Below are positions 12,420-18,541 of a stretch of 64,000 bases of DNA, one piece after another. The position numbers were made by a program, and so were the translations under genes. The DNA comes from Methanocalculus alkaliphilus (GTDB taxonomy: Archaea; Halobacteriota; Methanomicrobia; Methanomicrobiales; Methanocorpusculaceae): NCBI RefSeq assembly GCF_024170505.1, contig NZ_JALJYG010000001.1:62001-126000 (forward strand), read 5' to 3'. Position 1 is the first letter of the stretch; every line of letters starts with the position of its first letter. Under the pieces are notes generated by a model, which was given only the letters and a program-made list of their open reading frames with translations, was not told the origin of the DNA and searched no databases.

Positions 12420-12450
12420 TACCCCGGACAATTAGTATACTGCATCTTGT

Positions 12451-12534
12451 GCTGAGGTAGTCTAGCGGGAAGGCGCGAGGCTGGAAACCTCGTGAGGCAT
12501 TTGTCTCTCGGGAGTTCAAATCTCCCCCTCAGCG
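12451..12534 (+). tRNA. tRNA-Ser (anticodon GGA)
   Basis: 84 nt with a long variable arm. Acceptor GCTGAGG/CCTCAGC, anticodon stem CGAGG/CCTCG around CTGGAAA (GGA), T-loop TTCAAAT, discriminator G. The accessory block begins right after its 3' end. Confidence 0.95.
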
Positions 12535-12862
12535 TTTTGAAGACCAGTTCTACTCTTCTACCGAATCGTTAAAACTACCTTTCTGACCTCTCTTCACAAC
12601 GACTGCAGCACCCTGGGAAGACCATCTGAGGCGCACATCACCGAACAGCGAGCCTTCTAAGGGTTTACCAGCGTCCAAGGTCAACAAGCTTTTCTACCTC
12701 TTTGACAACTGGCGGCGCGATGATAGTCTGATGTACAACTGCGCATCTACGCCTGAAGTCTGCCTTATCCGGCATTCGTTACGACTGTGATGGAAGTAAG
12801 TGGTGATCTGGGATCACTATCAGGCAGGGAAGGATAACATCCTGCGGGCGTTGGAGGCGTGA
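12535..12862. other. 328-bp gene-free stretch after tRNA-Ser
   Basis: No frame longer than about 50 codons with family likeness. The sequence starts with a T-rich tRNA terminator and then reads like decayed coding DNA. It marks the left border of the accessory block; I found no second copy of the tRNA 3' end within the window. Confidence 0.4.
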
Positions 12863-13594
12863 TCACCCCGCCTTCCCGATGAGAAATGATTCCGGCTCTC
12901 TAATGGTGATGCCGGGGAGTGTCTCTTCGATTATCCTGCGCTTGTTCAGGATATGAGTCTTGTCGGAGGTGACGAGACTGACCTCCTCCCCTATCCGATT
13001 GATCTGTATGAAATATGCGTCCAGTATCACAAGGATATCTGGTTCATAGCCGATGAAGGGGATTAAGGCACTTTTTTGATCCGGGAGATGTACGTCATAA
13101 TTATCGGGGCAGCAGGTATAACAGGTGACCGGGGCTGAAGAGTCATCGGGACGGCAATCCCTGTCCAGCGAGTCCAGCGCCCCCTTGATAGCGTCGATGA
13201 ACGCCTGCCTGATGGTTTCCCGATCCTTCTCTGTCCCCAAGACACAGGTGCGGAGATCGTCCATGTTGCGATGCACAAAAGAGGTGAGGACATTCTTCTC
13301 CTTCTCGTTTTGAATTGAGAGGGTATACCGCCTGGTGAGTCCCTTGATAGTCATATCGAGGGTGAAGGGGTTAGGAGAGGCAGGGAGGGATTTTATAAGA
13401 TAGTTCAGGTATTTTGTTATCGTTCTCCTGAAGAGACCAAATACCCCGGTGCATTCCTTATACACCCGCTCGCTCGTATGTCGGAGGAAGCCATCCTGCT
13501 GCAGATATCGGTGGGTGTGGTGGTGCTGCCCATCCCACTCGATCCGGGATCCCACAAGGATGTTTGTATCGAGAAAATGATGAAGTGAGGCCAT
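12863..13594 (-). CDS. PIN-domain nuclease-like protein
   Basis: 243 residues. The N-terminal HHFLDTNILVG carries the first PIN aspartate, and ERVYKEC near residue 43 may give a Glu. The C-terminal part has PDILVILDAYFIQ and VSLVTSDKTHILNKRRII, matching the third and fourth acidic positions of the fold. A central insertion (about 60-175), with a Cys-rich piece (TCYTCCPDN), makes it longer than usual VapC toxins (about 130). PIN proteins are metal-dependent RNases. It follows the 313-residue gene by 14 nt, so the two look like one operon. Nuclease activity is inferred. Confidence 0.72.
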   Translation of the reverse strand: MASLHHFLDTNILVGSRIEWDGQHHHTHRYLQQDGFLRHTSERVYKECTGVFGLFRRTITKYLNYLIKSLPASPNPFTLDMTIKGLTRRYTLSIQNEKEKNVLTSFVHRNMDDLRTCVLGTEKDRETIRQAFIDAIKGALDSLDRDCRPDDSSAPVTCYTCCPDNYDVHLPDQKSALIPFIGYEPDILVILDAYFIQINRIGEEVSLVTSDKTHILNKRRIIEETLPGITIREPESFLIGKAG

Positions 13595-13608
13595 CGTGAT
13601 TACTCACT

Positions 13609-14550
13609 TCAGGAGAGGTACCCCTCGATCAAGGAGGAGAGGATCCTCTTTGAGCGGTCAGTGACATGCCGGTTGCTGGTGAGGCAGACCGATTCCCGAA
13701 TGGTTCGGTTAAATCTGTGTACTCCGGGGATCATCGTCGAGAGGGCTGACCAATATTCCCGTTTCCATTGATCGATTTTATTATCGTAGTACTCGTCATG
13801 ACCTTTTTCCAGAATGCGTACCCCTTTGGCAAAGGTGTACCAGATCTCAACGGCGGTCTTACAGGTCACCGCGGCAACCAGGTGCGCGTTATCCTCATCT
13901 TTTCTGATGATGTCAAAGGCCTTTCCGGCTCCTGAGACATAGGAAGTGAACCCGTCGTTGAACTCGTCGAAGAGCGGTTCCTCAATAAGTTCGGCCTCGC
14001 AGTCATAGATGATCTTTTCCAAGTGGTCGATCTCAGGGATTGTTACGTCCTCAATGTAGCGGTTGAGGGTGATTTGGCCGGCAGGGCGGGAAACGATATA
14101 TTCCTCCAGGAGAGTCAGATAATCCACTTTATAGAGGGGCATGAACTCGTACGGTGCATCATCCCGGTAAATCTTGTTGACAAAGGGTTCGATGTGATAA
14201 GGATCAAACTCTCTGACAATGCCTTCAACGATAGCAGAAGCCCTTTCAAGCACATTGAGGGGGTCGCTGAGAGTATTGTTGAGCATAAGAAGGGATTTTC
14301 CTCTGTGCGTCTCTTCCTCTCGAAGGATGCCATTTGCTTTCAGGGTATCGATGGATACCTCAACGACCTCTGAAAACGGGCCGTAGTTGTACCAGTAAAA
14401 CGGAATATTCTTTCTGACCGGGTCATCGTCGGGAAGGGTCGCCCTCACCTTGAAGAGGATTTTATGTACTGCTCTTTTGGATAATTTGAAATTGGGGCGA
14501 GAATGATAGATCTGCTGGATCAGGTGAGAGACGACTTCGGACTGAAGCAT
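13609..14550 (-). CDS. Panacea-like protein, candidate antitoxin of the PIN protein
   Basis: 313 residues, not clearly assignable. Residues about 20-75 (FKLSKRAVHKILFKVRA, then PFYWYNYGPFSEVVEVSIDTL) resemble the Panacea/SocA-like domain, whose core pairs a helix with hK-L-hY and a later W-X-Y-G-P motif. That domain occurs in antitoxins that pair with many unrelated toxins. The rest is mostly helical, with an acidic region (about 165-200) and no catalytic motif I recognise. A TATA-like TTTATATTT (minus strand, about 14573-14581) about 27 nt before the ATG fits a leaderless start. The antitoxin role is inferred from domain likeness and gene order. Confidence 0.6.
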   Translation of the reverse strand: MLQSEVVSHLIQQIYHSRPNFKLSKRAVHKILFKVRATLPDDDPVRKNIPFYWYNYGPFSEVVEVSIDTLKANGILREEETHRGKSLLMLNNTLSDPLNVLERASAIVEGIVREFDPYHIEPFVNKIYRDDAPYEFMPLYKVDYLTLLEEYIVSRPAGQITLNRYIEDVTIPEIDHLEKIIYDCEAELIEEPLFDEFNDGFTSYVSGAGKAFDIIRKDEDNAHLVAAVTCKTAVEIWYTFAKGVRILEKGHDEYYDNKIDQWKREYWSALSTMIPGVHRFNRTIRESVCLTSNRHVTDRSKRILSSLIEGYLS

Positions 14551-14674
14551 CGTATCATACTATACATGAAACAAATATAAAGGGGTTTCTTATGCGGGGT
14601 GAAAGTAAGAACCCTGCCCCACGTCAACGTATGATACCTTAGGAAAGGAGGATCTGGGCTACGTAAAGGTAGAT

Positions 14675-14705
14675 TGACATACGTGTCTTTATGGAATGTA
14701 TGTCA
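14675..14705. repeat. Inverted repeat, 8-bp arms
   Basis: TGACATAC (14675-14682) and GTATGTCA (14698-14705) are perfect complements around 15 nt. Possible operator between the Panacea-like gene and the AlbA_2 gene. Confidence 0.6.
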
Positions 14706-14738
14706 TGCCTGGTTGCTTTAGAGAACCCGATCATCATT

Positions 14739-14760
14739 TACGTCAACATAAGTTGACGTA
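14739..14760. promoter_or_regulatory. Perfect palindrome, candidate operator
   Basis: Arms TACGTCAAC and GTTGACGTA are fully complementary around ATAA. ACGTCAACGTA also occurs at about 14621-14631, so the ACGTCAAC half-site is found twice in this gap. Symmetry suggests a dimeric regulator; which gene it controls is not shown. Confidence 0.55.
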
Positions 14761-14869
14761 CATTACTCCATCCAATAGACACACATCCCCTGCCGCCAGA
14801 TGATTTCACCAGAGACCGGACAAAACACCTGGGGATTCACAATATCCGGAATGGCACAACCCCTCAGAG

Positions 14870-14970
14870 CCACCATCACTCCTTCTTCCCTGCCAACAGC
14901 CCCCTGACCCGCTCCCCATCCTCTGTGAGCCGGTAGATGATCCAGTTCCCGCTCTGTTCACCAGCGATCA
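14870..14970. repeat. 101-bp direct repeat, left copy
   Basis: Identical at 99 of 101 positions to 16894-16994, which is the 3' end of arsR. The two copies flank the AlbA_2 gene and lie 2,024 bp apart in the same orientation. Confidence 0.93.
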
Positions 14971-14972
14971 AC
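14876..14972 (-). pseudogene. arsR 3'-end fragment (about 32 codons)
   Basis: The left repeat copy reads on the minus strand as the last part of the ArsR protein (GEQSGNWIIYRLTEDGERV through to KKE and TGA). It has no start or HTH, so it is a remnant created by duplication. One of the two mismatches changes GEKE to GKKE. Confidence 0.8.
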
Positions 14973-14977
14973 CCTAT

Positions 14978-16714
14978 ATGCCCCCGAAGCACATTCCCTT
15001 TATGCGCACAGCAGACGAGGTTCTTCTCCTCCTCGATGAACTCGACACCCTTCCAGCTGATGATCTTGAAGATCAGGACCTCGACTTCAAGGAATGGAAC
15101 AATCGCAGCCGGAACGATGCCATCGATCAGATCATAGAATACGCCATCTGCATGGCCAATGGCGGCGGTGGCACCATAGTATTCGGCATCAGCGACAAGG
15201 TCGTTGGCAGAAACCAGGCCATCTTTGGAGTTCCACCTGAAATAGACACAAACCTCCTGAGAAAAGCTATCTACGATTCAACCGATCCGAAAATAACACC
15301 TGTTTTCGAAGAGATCAGGGTACCCGAAGGAACTGGTCGTCTGATCCTGATGCAGATACACCCAGGCTTTCCCCCCTACACTGACACCAGCGGACGGGGA
15401 AAGATTCGAATTGGAAAAGACTGTCAACCCCTGACCGGTACTATGCGACGGAGGATCGGTGTGGAGACCGGCGAGACCGACTTTTCCGCCGGTACCATCC
15501 CAGGTAATCCGGAATCCCATATATCCCCAGCAGCAATGGAGGTTCTCAGGGTCACATCTCAAAAAGAACACGCCCCGGACGAACTCCTAGCCCTCTCTGA
15601 CGTTGACCTCCTCACTTCCCTTGGTCTAATCCATTCCGGGCGAATCACCAGGGCCGGACTCATCCTCGCCGGAAGAGAAAACTCGATAGCCGCCCACCTG
15701 CCAGGTTACGCCTGGACACATGTACAAATGAGCAACGACACCGACTATTCCAACCGTATAGATGGTCGTGATGCACTGATGATCTCCATCAGCCGCATAC
15801 TCGACCGTATCATGGCCGATAACCCCATCACAACCCTGAAACATGGTATGTTCCACTTCGAGTTCCGACGGTACCCCGAGATCGTTCTTCGGGAGGCGAT
15901 AATGAACGCCTTCTGCCATGCCGACTACAGGATTGGTGGCCTTGTCATCGTGCGGCAGTATCCCGACCACATGGAAATTGGAAACCCAGGAGGGTTCATC
16001 GGTGGAGTCTCACCAACTAACATTCTCCACCATCCCCCGATAGCCCGAAATCCCCTCCTTGTCGGGGCACTTACCAAGCTTCGGTTGGTGAACAGGCTCA
16101 ATCTTGGCGTACAGCGGATGTACCGTTACATGCTGATCGAGGGAAAAGAGCCACCGATCATCAGTGAGCAGGGGGATGCCGTAACGGTCGTGCTGAAAGG
16201 AGGGGATTATTCCCTTCCAATTCGGTTTTTTGTCGAGGAAGAGAGCCAGAGGGGAGAGGGACTTACGGTCGATCATCTGTTAATGCTTACCTATCTGATC
16301 CGCAATACTGAAATTGATACACATACAGCCGCTGCGCTGATCCAGCGAACCGAAAGGGAGGCGCGAAACACCTTGCAGGAGATGGAAACCACCCGTGGTT
16401 ATCTGGAAAGGGGTGGGACAGGAAGGAGTACCTACTGGACTCTCCGTCCTGACCTTCACCTACGTTTGATGGCGCCGGGACACCCTGAACGCAACCGGCG
16501 GATTGATTGGGAAGCGGCTAAGACACGAATACTGAGTGTGCTGCGGCAGCGATCGATGCGCGGGGAGGGAGGAATATCAAATAGAGAAATTCGGCAAATC
16601 ACCCACCTTGATCGATACCAAGTGGTGCGGTTAATGCAGCAGCTCCAAGAGGAGGAGACACACATCGATCTTGAGGGAAAAGGTCGGGGAAGCAGGTATG
16701 TCTATCGTGGCTGA
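14978..16714 (+). CDS. AlbA_2 (Schlafen-like) domain, RecG-like regulator protein
   Basis: 578 residues. An N-terminal AlbA_2/Schlafen domain (about 20-150) has DLDFKEWNN and ICMANGGGGTIVFGI. A central region (about 290-400) resembles the HATPase_c_4 domain often fused to AlbA_2: REAIMNAFCHADYRIGG, MEIGNPGGF, RNPLLVGAL and RLNLGVQRMYR. A C-terminal winged helix follows (about 510-575). Proteins of this build are called RecG-like or divergent AAA-4 regulators; some lie in defence islands, but their biochemistry is poorly known. ATG at 15002 (MRTADEVLLLLDELD) is an equally good start. The gene sits alone between the 101-bp direct repeats. Confidence 0.78.
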   Translation: MPPKHIPFMRTADEVLLLLDELDTLPADDLEDQDLDFKEWNNRSRNDAIDQIIEYAICMANGGGGTIVFGISDKVVGRNQAIFGVPPEIDTNLLRKAIYDSTDPKITPVFEEIRVPEGTGRLILMQIHPGFPPYTDTSGRGKIRIGKDCQPLTGTMRRRIGVETGETDFSAGTIPGNPESHISPAAMEVLRVTSQKEHAPDELLALSDVDLLTSLGLIHSGRITRAGLILAGRENSIAAHLPGYAWTHVQMSNDTDYSNRIDGRDALMISISRILDRIMADNPITTLKHGMFHFEFRRYPEIVLREAIMNAFCHADYRIGGLVIVRQYPDHMEIGNPGGFIGGVSPTNILHHPPIARNPLLVGALTKLRLVNRLNLGVQRMYRYMLIEGKEPPIISEQGDAVTVVLKGGDYSLPIRFFVEEESQRGEGLTVDHLLMLTYLIRNTEIDTHTAAALIQRTEREARNTLQEMETTRGYLERGGTGRSTYWTLRPDLHLRLMAPGHPERNRRIDWEAAKTRILSVLRQRSMRGEGGISNREIRQITHLDRYQVVRLMQQLQEEETHIDLEGKGRGSRYVYRG

Positions 16715-16770
16715 ATAGAGCCTTAGCTATTCATGATAAGAGCCGTGAGCCTATTCAGATCGTGATCAGA

Positions 16771-16787
16771 AATGTGATCATCACATT
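16771..16787. promoter_or_regulatory. Palindrome downstream of the AlbA_2 gene
   Basis: AATGTGAT and ATCACATT flank a single C. GAAATGTG recurs twice just after (about 16807-16831). It lies between the 3' ends of the AlbA_2 gene and arsR, so it may be a terminator hairpin or a protein site. Confidence 0.45.
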
Positions 16788-16893
16788 CCTGTCACAATTT
16801 CCAAGAGAAATGTGGAGAAATGTGAAACCATCATTTTGGGATCTCATTTCGATTCTATCGTATCCTTCCCCTCGCACCCTCTATCCAACAGTT

Positions 16894-16994
16894 CCACCAT
16901 CACTCCTTCTCCCCTGCCAACAGCCCCCTGACCCGCTCCCCATCCTCTGTGAGCCGGTAGATGATCCAGTTCCCGCTCTGTTCACCGGCGATCA
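16894..16994. repeat. 101-bp direct repeat, right copy (inside arsR)
   Basis: Partner of 14870-14970 (99/101 identical). It covers the last 31 codons of arsR, its stop codon and 6 bp beyond. This copy is continuous with an intact gene, so it is probably the parent. Confidence 0.93.
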
Positions 16995-17310
16995 GCCCCG
17001 CATTCTTGAGGATCGAGAGATGGTATGAGAGGCGGGAATCTGCGACCCCAAGAACAGCCCGGATGACACAGACACAGAGGGGCTGGACCGCAAGGAGAAT
17101 GAGGATCTTCAGGCGGAGGGGATCGGCAAGCCCCCGGAAGATTGAGACGGTCCCTTCCACCACCTCTTCCGGAGGAAGGCGGCCGATCAGCCCGGCTATC
17201 CCCCCGCATTCGCAGAGTGAGGATTCGATCTCTGCCGGCAGCTCCATCCGGCCATCTTCATCTGCCCTGTCAGGTGCCTGCCCCACTCTCCTCCCGCCTT
17301 TTCGTATCAT
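16900..17310 (-). CDS. arsR: ArsR-family metalloregulator
   Basis: 136 residues. The winged helix spans about 55-125: RGLADPLRLKILILLAVQPLCVCVIRAVLGVADSRLSYHLSILKNAGLI. The CVC pair in the third helix is the classic As(III)/Sb(III) site of ArsR proteins, and ECGG (about 33-36) adds another Cys. Without metal it should bind DNA and repress; metalloid releases it. It is divergent from the arsenic operon, and a palindrome (17406-17425) lies between them. The N-terminal 30 residues are weakly supported, and a later start is possible. Confidence 0.9.
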   Translation of the reverse strand: MIRKGGRRVGQAPDRADEDGRMELPAEIESSLCECGGIAGLIGRLPPEEVVEGTVSIFRGLADPLRLKILILLAVQPLCVCVIRAVLGVADSRLSYHLSILKNAGLIAGEQSGNWIIYRLTEDGERVRGLLAGEKE

Positions 17311-17470: not shown

Positions 17471-18541
17471 GTGACAGACCCCCTCACCGGATCCCTCATC
17501 CTGGGATGGACGACGCTTGCAGAATACCTCGCCGAGCATGTCCTCACCTGCCTCATCCCGGCGTTCTTCATCGCCGGAGGTATCGCCGCCTTCATCAAAA
17601 AAGAGGCGATCATGAGGTACTTCAGCCCTTATGCAAAGAAACCGGTCGCGTACGGAATCGCGTCCGTCTCAGGCACCGTCCTTGCCGTCTGCTCCTGTAC
17701 TATCCTCCCGATCTTTGCAGGCCTCTTCAAGCGGGGGAGCGGGATTGGGCCTGCCATCACCTTCGTCTATGCAGGCCCGGCGATCAACATCCTGGCGGTC
17801 GTCTATACCGCCAAGGTACTCGGCTTTGATATTGGCCTTGCACGTGCTGTCTTTGCCATCATCCTGGCAATCGCAATCGGGCTGATCATGGCAGTACTCT
17901 TCCGATCAGATGATGAGGCGACGAAGAGGAAGATGGCAGCGATGCCACCAGCCCCTGCGAGCGATGATGAACGGCCCCGCTGGATCGTCCCGCTCTTCTT
18001 CATCCTTCTCATCGGCATCCTGATCGTCGGAACTGCGGCAATCGACTGGATGATCAAGTTTCCGATCCTCTATGCCCTCACCCTCGGGGTGGCATATCTC
18101 CTGATCTACCACTTCGAACGGGACGAGGTGACCGAGTGGGGATGGGAGACCTGGGATCTTACAAAGAAGATCGTTCCGATACTTCTCATTGGAACATTCG
18201 CCCTCGGGATGCTCGCCTTCTTCCTCCCACCGGAGACTTTTGCCCCGTACTTCGGAGAGAGCACCCTCCAGGCAAACCTCCTCGCCTCATTCGTCGGTAC
18301 CATCCTGTATATGCCGACGCTCCTTGAGGTCCCGGTGATCGGAACGACATTCGGCTACACATCAGGGATGATGGCACAAGGGCCGGCACTGGCTCTCCTC
18401 CTCTCCGGACCGACCGTGAGTCTCCCGTCGCTCCTCGTCATCTCACGGATTATGGGGATGAAGAAGACCGTCGTCTATGCGGGTATCGTGATCATCTTCT
18501 CTGCCCTCGCCGGATTTGGCTACGGGCTGCTGGTGGGGTGA
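17471..18541 (+). CDS. ArsP-type permease (DUF318/UPF0718)
   Basis: 356 residues from GTG at 17471, preceded by GGAGGAG. Eight or more helices in two halves. The first half has VSGTVLAVCSCTILPIFAGLFKRG and FVYAGPAINILAVV; the second has a related ASFVGTILYMPTLLEVPVIG. The CSCT cysteine motif is the metalloid-binding signature of ArsP, which exports trivalent organoarsenicals such as methylarsenite; some relatives in this family have other substrates. It leads the operon and overlaps the next gene by 4 nt. Confidence 0.82.
   Translation: MTDPLTGSLILGWTTLAEYLAEHVLTCLIPAFFIAGGIAAFIKKEAIMRYFSPYAKKPVAYGIASVSGTVLAVCSCTILPIFAGLFKRGSGIGPAITFVYAGPAINILAVVYTAKVLGFDIGLARAVFAIILAIAIGLIMAVLFRSDDEATKRKMAAMPPAPASDDERPRWIVPLFFILLIGILIVGTAAIDWMIKFPILYALTLGVAYLLIYHFERDEVTEWGWETWDLTKKIVPILLIGTFALGMLAFFLPPETFAPYFGESTLQANLLASFVGTILYMPTLLEVPVIGTTFGYTSGMMAQGPALALLLSGPTVSLPSLLVISRIMGMKKTVVYAGIVIIFSALAGFGYGLLVG

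Follow-up and report, generated by a model that had tools for sequence, protein, structure and literature searches.

A Schlafen/AlbA_2-type gene cassette probably inserted in the 3' end of arsR with a long target duplication in the archaeon Methanocalculus alkaliphilus

The locus considered here lies in a window of 64 kb (G000:C1:62001-126000) from the genome of Methanocalculus alkaliphilus (G000; 2.09 Mb, a draft assembly of 37 contigs), a methanogenic archaeon of the order Methanomicrobiales. Its features, of which the Schlafen/AlbA_2-type gene is referred to as the AlbA gene, are the following, with positions counted from the first base of the window.

14763–14876, minus strand: ORF of 37 aa, the ancestral downstream neighbour of arsR, with an ATG overlapping the stop codon of the arsR remnant (from its translation and a counterpart in G003)
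14870–14974, minus strand: left copy of the repeat, a remnant consisting of the last ~105 bp of arsR, joined to the ancestral downstream neighbour (its flank adjoins a single arsR in G004 and G005)
14964–15001, plus strand: region upstream of the AlbA gene, with a TATA-like CCTATATG; its first 9–11 bp coincide with arsR (left joint)
15002–16714, plus strand: AlbA gene, 570 aa, SLFN_AlbA_2 and HATPase_c_4 domains (Pfam, E = 2.9e-18 and 2.4e-17; also homologues, and profile matches to 3LMM and Schlafens)
16762–16841, no strand assigned: palindromic element of ~75 bp downstream of the AlbA gene, travelling with the cassette
16894–16998, minus strand: right copy of the repeat, the 3' end of the intact arsR (from the repeat alignment)
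16900–17310, minus strand: arsR, the intact target gene (HTH_5, E = 4.4e-13; orthologues in the genus)

The segments 14870–14970 and 16894–16994 are direct repeats on one strand, 2,024 bp apart, matching at 99 of 101 bases. These values, given in the original prediction, were confirmed by alignment, and the repeat was found to extend to 105 bp (102/105 identical, 97%). The two mismatches within the 101 bp are at 14887 (T/C) and 14963 (A/G), and the longest exact run is 75 bp. No other exact direct repeat of at least 25 bases is present in the 64-kb window; all 51 of its repeated 25-mers belong to the arsR pair, which therefore goes far beyond chance. The right copy had been read as the end of an intact arsR and the left one as a remnant, and this is borne out by the HTH_5 match and by the left copy, which holds only the last ~100 bp of the gene. 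An ArsP_1 permease gene follows arsR at 17471, and the 37-aa ORF is matched by one at the corresponding position in G003 (73% identity over 33 aa).

A single gene does lie between the two copies, as predicted, but the proposed length of 578 residues (ATG at 14978) should probably be shortened: a start at 15002, giving 570 aa, is more likely, because homologues align from that methionine and the conserved TATA-like CCTATATG is located just upstream. Both Pfam domains pass the curated cut-offs (scores of 67 bits, cut-off 25.3, and 63 bits, cut-off 26). A profile built from 32 homologues matches PDB 3LMM over most of its length (E = 5e-47) and also matches Schlafen structures. The protein resembles Schlafen core/AlbA_2 proteins (SLFN13, PMC5862951; PDB 3LMM) in an aligned acidic catalytic triad: E23 and D28 are invariant, D65 is conserved in at least 90% of sequences, and these residues align with E205, E210 and D248 of SLFN13, residues required for RNA cleavage according to mutational evidence (PMC5862951). 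It differs from the Schlafen core of SLFN13 in additionally carrying the HATPase_c_4 ATPase part, and its nuclease activity is a prediction. It is plausible that the protein has a nuclease-like function, affects growth or serves in defence. No defence family was found to match over most of the protein, for which PADLOC gave weak partial similarity to pAgo-associated domains.

Bacterial homologues 60–64% identical to the protein occur in Deltaproteobacteria, Hydrogenophilus, Thiocapsa and others, and this implies wide transfer of the gene. Homologues 50–64% identical are found across Deltaproteobacteria, Gammaproteobacteria, Bacillota and other groups (L178–L230). Viral and plasmid origins of the cassette were considered and rejected, as IMG/VR contained no relative of the protein and PLSDB gave no DNA match. 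An RNA element was likewise rejected, since a search of 10–22 kb of the window against Rfam gave tRNA-Ser alone above threshold. Solitary C-terminal fragments of the AlbA protein (the last 50–100 residues, 72–83% identical) are present in Methanoculleus-like genomes (L006, L007, L008, L009), where they are apparently remnants of lost copies.

The limits of the cassette can be approached through AlbA homologues in other families of the order. These are 76–79% identical and share the upstream sequence (CGATCAATCCTATATG in G105, CAATCAACCCTATATG in G104), with CGATCAAYCCTATATG conserved in both genomes. The arsR gene of G003 likewise reads CGATCAACCCT at the point where the left copy of the window ends, so the left joint lies within 9–11 bp common to recipient and cassette. 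The probability of a 9/11 match arising by chance at a fixed place is 1e-4, for a microhomology read at one joint of one site. On the other side, the palindromic element (16762–16841) is 75–83% identical to elements in several families of the order (L009, L123, L129, L077, L070); it follows the AlbA gene in G090 and G102 and an AlbA remnant in G035, and it is found without an AlbA gene in G036 and, beside arsR, in G001 (75% over 77 bp). The latter suggests, as a lead rather than as proof, that an AlbA cassette was once present at arsR in G001. The element could be an operator, a terminator or a part of the mobility of the cassette.

Comparison across the genus places these features in a gene order that, where traceable on one contig, runs hemD-like gene, cbf5, variable part, arsR, arsP. 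The variable part consists of a Fic gene in G001, G004 and G005 and of a Fic scar in G002; in the window, it contains a two-gene insert, the Fic upstream scar, the small ORF and the bracketed AlbA gene, and in G003 it is made up of a Fic 3' part, the small ORF, a remnant of arsR and an MNT/HEPN pair. An empty site had been predicted for sister genomes, and G004 and G005 indeed have a single arsR 3' end running straight into the ancestral downstream sequence, with no AlbA gene; the arsR site of G002 is also free of a cassette. In alignment with the sisters, the left copy retains the ancestral downstream neighbour and the right copy the ancestral upstream part of arsR, as would be expected if an insertion had duplicated the end of the gene. 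Both the empty sites and this inheritance of the flanks support the predicted insertion beside arsR with duplication of the target end. None of the sisters compared carries the same AlbA_2 gene without the repeat. Nor is the repeat an ordinary shared element: within the genus, a second arsR 3' end is confined to G000 and G003, and the latter brackets a different cassette.

Two further segments of the variable part deserve description. A 139-bp element with the palindrome ACGTCAACATAAGTTGACGT (14624–14762) is found upstream of the Fic gene in G001, G004 and G005, and persists as a scar in the window and in G002, where the Fic gene is gone. The two-gene insert (12863–14550), between tRNA-Ser (12450–12535) and the Fic scar, encodes a 243-aa protein with a PIN-domain-like start (LDTNIL) and another of 313 aa that weakly resembles PDC-M19A; the insert is missing from that place in G001, G002, G004 and G005, and part of it is present at 90% in G006.

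In G003, the second arsR 3' end lies at the same place and brackets an NTP_transf_2 protein and a HEPN protein, the MNT/HEPN pair. In G003 the duplication takes in more of the small ORF and the remnant stops sooner than in the window, so the end points differ. Over the shared part, the copies are identical at 75 of 76 positions in G000 and at 67 of 74 in G003, distances that fit two separate insertions.

The 3' end of a DUF447 gene provides a second site, at which empty, single and stacked states can be compared. DUF447 is directly followed by a pilin-like gene in G001, G002, G006 and G007. One cassette is present in G000 (DUF447, HicB, a 122-bp remnant, pilin) and two in G003 (DUF447, AlbA, a 294-bp copy at 95%, HicB, a remnant of ~160 bp, pilin), and in G004 a HicB stretch and an acylphosphatase-like gene lie between two DUF447 3' ends. 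As HicB is shared and thus older, and the AlbA cassette of G003 is younger and adjoins the intact DUF447, new cassettes seem to enter at the intact gene and to push older ones away. It may be speculated that these archaea build arrays of defence and toxin-antitoxin cassettes by repeated entry at the 3' end of one host gene, which would be regenerated each time while older cassettes are pushed downstream, in integron-like stacks with the duplicated gene end as spacer and with either no dedicated integrase or one acting in trans; this is unlikely.

An unbiased scan was made of the six largest contigs of G000 (C1–C6, 1.16 Mb; C1 holds the window) for direct repeats of at least 35 bp and at least 80% identity, 0.3–8 kb apart. 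It yielded about twelve pairs spaced by 8 kb or less, among them several tandem paralogues without cargo, and with so few in 1.16 Mb the notion that direct repeats are simply common here was rejected. The pairs that enclose unrelated cargo, with gene names supported by Pfam, are the following.

arsR 3' end, around the AlbA gene
DUF447 3' end, 122 bp, 90%, around HicB
48 bp, 92%, around HicB
3' end of a 362-aa gene, 274 bp, 98.5%, around a PIN protein
End of a hexapeptide-repeat gene, 236 bp, 90%, around ParE/VapB-like genes and DUF4143
HycI protease gene, 402 bp, 92%, around a TPR gene (not toxin-antitoxin)

A cheW-like repeat pair also flanks a large chemoreceptor-like gene, and all remaining pairs are cargo-free tandem paralogues. 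Bracketed DNA makes up 1.2% of C1–C6 and contains four of the seven HicB, PIN and AlbA_2 genes (p = 7e-7; p = 3e-5 when the case of the window is left out). The 274-bp duplication (G000:C5:57884-59304, L292) encloses the PIN-domain gene together with a 69-aa ORF and, judging by identity, is the youngest such event seen in G000. A partial duplication without cargo (535 bp, 95%; G000:C1:16816-18277, L245) is located in a methyltransferase operon and looks like mtrA.

Two regions picked because they hold AlbA genes show similar arrangements at HIT-family genes: three HIT copies with an MNT/HepT pair and an AlbA gene in between (L141:97-3708, G000 C8), and HIT copies around UPF0175 and around AlbA/HicA (L140:4832-11439, G000 C7). 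Across the order, 12/52 AlbA-family genes are bracketed, against 4/268 other genes of 300–900 aa in the same DNA; without the three cases known beforehand, the counts are 9/49 and 4/264 (p = 1e-5). In a wide, mostly bacterial set of the same AlbA subfamily, by comparison, 4 of 56 loci are bracketed, against 2 of 161. The idea that AlbA genes are always bracketed was thus rejected, and this low rate indicates that the gene itself does not dictate the mode of insertion; bracketing would be a property of these genomes, or of recent events there, and not of the AlbA gene. Repeat lengths across the bracketed sites range from 41 to 756 bp, and the targets (arsR, DUF447, HIT, nitroreductase and others) are unrelated, which leaves no fixed-length core shared by the sites. 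Two single-contig genomes, G058 and G060, contain comparable brackets; that of G058 (L175:8328-11804) is a 756-bp, 98% gene duplication around an AlbA gene, with one copy split into two frames. These cases suggest that toxin-antitoxin and Schlafen-like genes repeatedly enter without breaking host genes.

The explanation that best accounts for the locus, to which we assign a probability of roughly 70%, is that a mobile cassette of ~1.9 kb entered the 3' part of arsR and that the terminal ~105 bp of the gene were duplicated in the process. This would be a case of insertion with long target duplication, which is known from restriction-modification genes of bacteria; in this archaeon the cargo would be a Schlafen-type gene and toxin-antitoxin modules. 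The site shared by G000 and G003 could instead go back to a duplication of the arsR 3' end that happened once, in their common ancestor, and has since served as a fixed docking place where cargo was swapped by homologous recombination through the repeats, with gene conversion keeping the copies alike. Such a history, which we regard as unlikely, would account for the same site, orientation and flank carrying different cargo, and for the genome-specific variants that the copies within each genome partly share. However, the duplication end points differ between the two genomes, none of the genomes of the genus has a cargo-free double arsR 3' end, and the copy-to-copy identities imply different ages unless conversion is invoked. 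Gene conversion also bears on the predicted recency of the insertion: the copies are more alike (97%) than either is to the arsR end of the sister (92%), which points to a recent event only if conversion is excluded.

Site-specific integration, in which an element would use the arsR 3' end as its attachment site and a recombinase would act in trans, as for tyrosine-integrase islands at gene 3' ends, is improbable. It has in its favour the regenerated target 3' end, the distal position of the remnant and the stacking of cassettes at one gene, and against it an insert holding the AlbA gene only, with no recombinase, and the variable repeats in unrelated target genes. An assembly artefact, or a trivial tandem duplication of arsR with later decay, might be imagined for a draft of 37 contigs in which some cargo-free tandem duplications exist; the copies, however, differ at three sites and join different flanks, the single-copy flank order is present in sisters, and single-contig genomes contain similar brackets, all of which make this explanation highly improbable.

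Under insertion with long target duplication, the cassette would comprise its own promoter, the AlbA_2-ATPase gene and the conserved palindromic 3' element, and would leave arsR whole on one side and the old 3' end with its ancestral neighbour on the other. In the favoured route, which corresponds to homology-facilitated illegitimate recombination, one side of the incoming DNA would pair with arsR and the other side would be joined at the short microhomology CGATCAACCCT. Selection may then favour insertions that do not disrupt the target gene, and addictive cargo may guard the unstable repeat pair against collapse and loss, which would explain why toxin-antitoxin genes dominate; the bracket holding a TPR gene is a point against this. 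Toxin-antitoxin genes as stabilisers are an existing model with mixed support (PMC2654758).

These observations bear on the question of how toxin-antitoxin and defence genes travel singly when no mobile element carries them. Within one archaeal genus, one host gene can be seen empty, with a single cassette and with a stack, arsR can be seen both empty and filled, and several further sites exist, so that the rules of joining (homology, microhomology, polarity) become readable from sequence. The bracketed form predicts a precise loop-out, which opens addiction by the cargo to a direct test: retention of the cassette would be expected only where losing it carries a cost.

Among known systems, integrase-type islands share with these sites the regenerated target 3' end, the remnant at the far end and tandem stacking, and differ in that the arsR insert contains no integrase (the AlbA gene alone fits there) and in the range of repeat lengths and targets. 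The insert also contains no transposase, and a 105-bp duplication is unlike the short target duplication of an insertion sequence or transposon. One-sided homologous pairing can yield direct repeats, as in homology-facilitated illegitimate recombination (as cited in PMC2884548) and in the merodiploids made by transformation (PMC3784515), and transformation-made duplications have been demonstrated in pneumococcus (PMC3784515). The available accounts of these processes concern transformable bacteria, whereas uptake and joining are putative in this archaeon. A limited literature search gave no report of archaeal toxin-antitoxin genes inserted with a long target duplication, and nothing relevant on repeats around toxin-antitoxin genes. 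The closest counterpart is the insertion with long target duplication proposed in 2000 for bacterial restriction-modification genes (Nobusato et al. 2000, Furuta et al. 2010, via PMC3874152, PMC1643837, PMC3031569). As outlined in those sources, such insertions likewise involve a small selfish gene unit without a transposase, a long target duplication of variable length, of the order of 100 bp, and a single-copy empty site in relatives; long flanking repeats, a single-copy empty site and variable duplication length are all found here. The inserted unit is not a restriction-modification system but an AlbA_2 and HATPase_c_4 gene, so the arsR cassette is classed as a variant working like the known kind, set apart from the insertions outlined there by its archaeal host, by its AlbA_2-ATPase and toxin-antitoxin cargo and by stacking at the 3' end of a gene.
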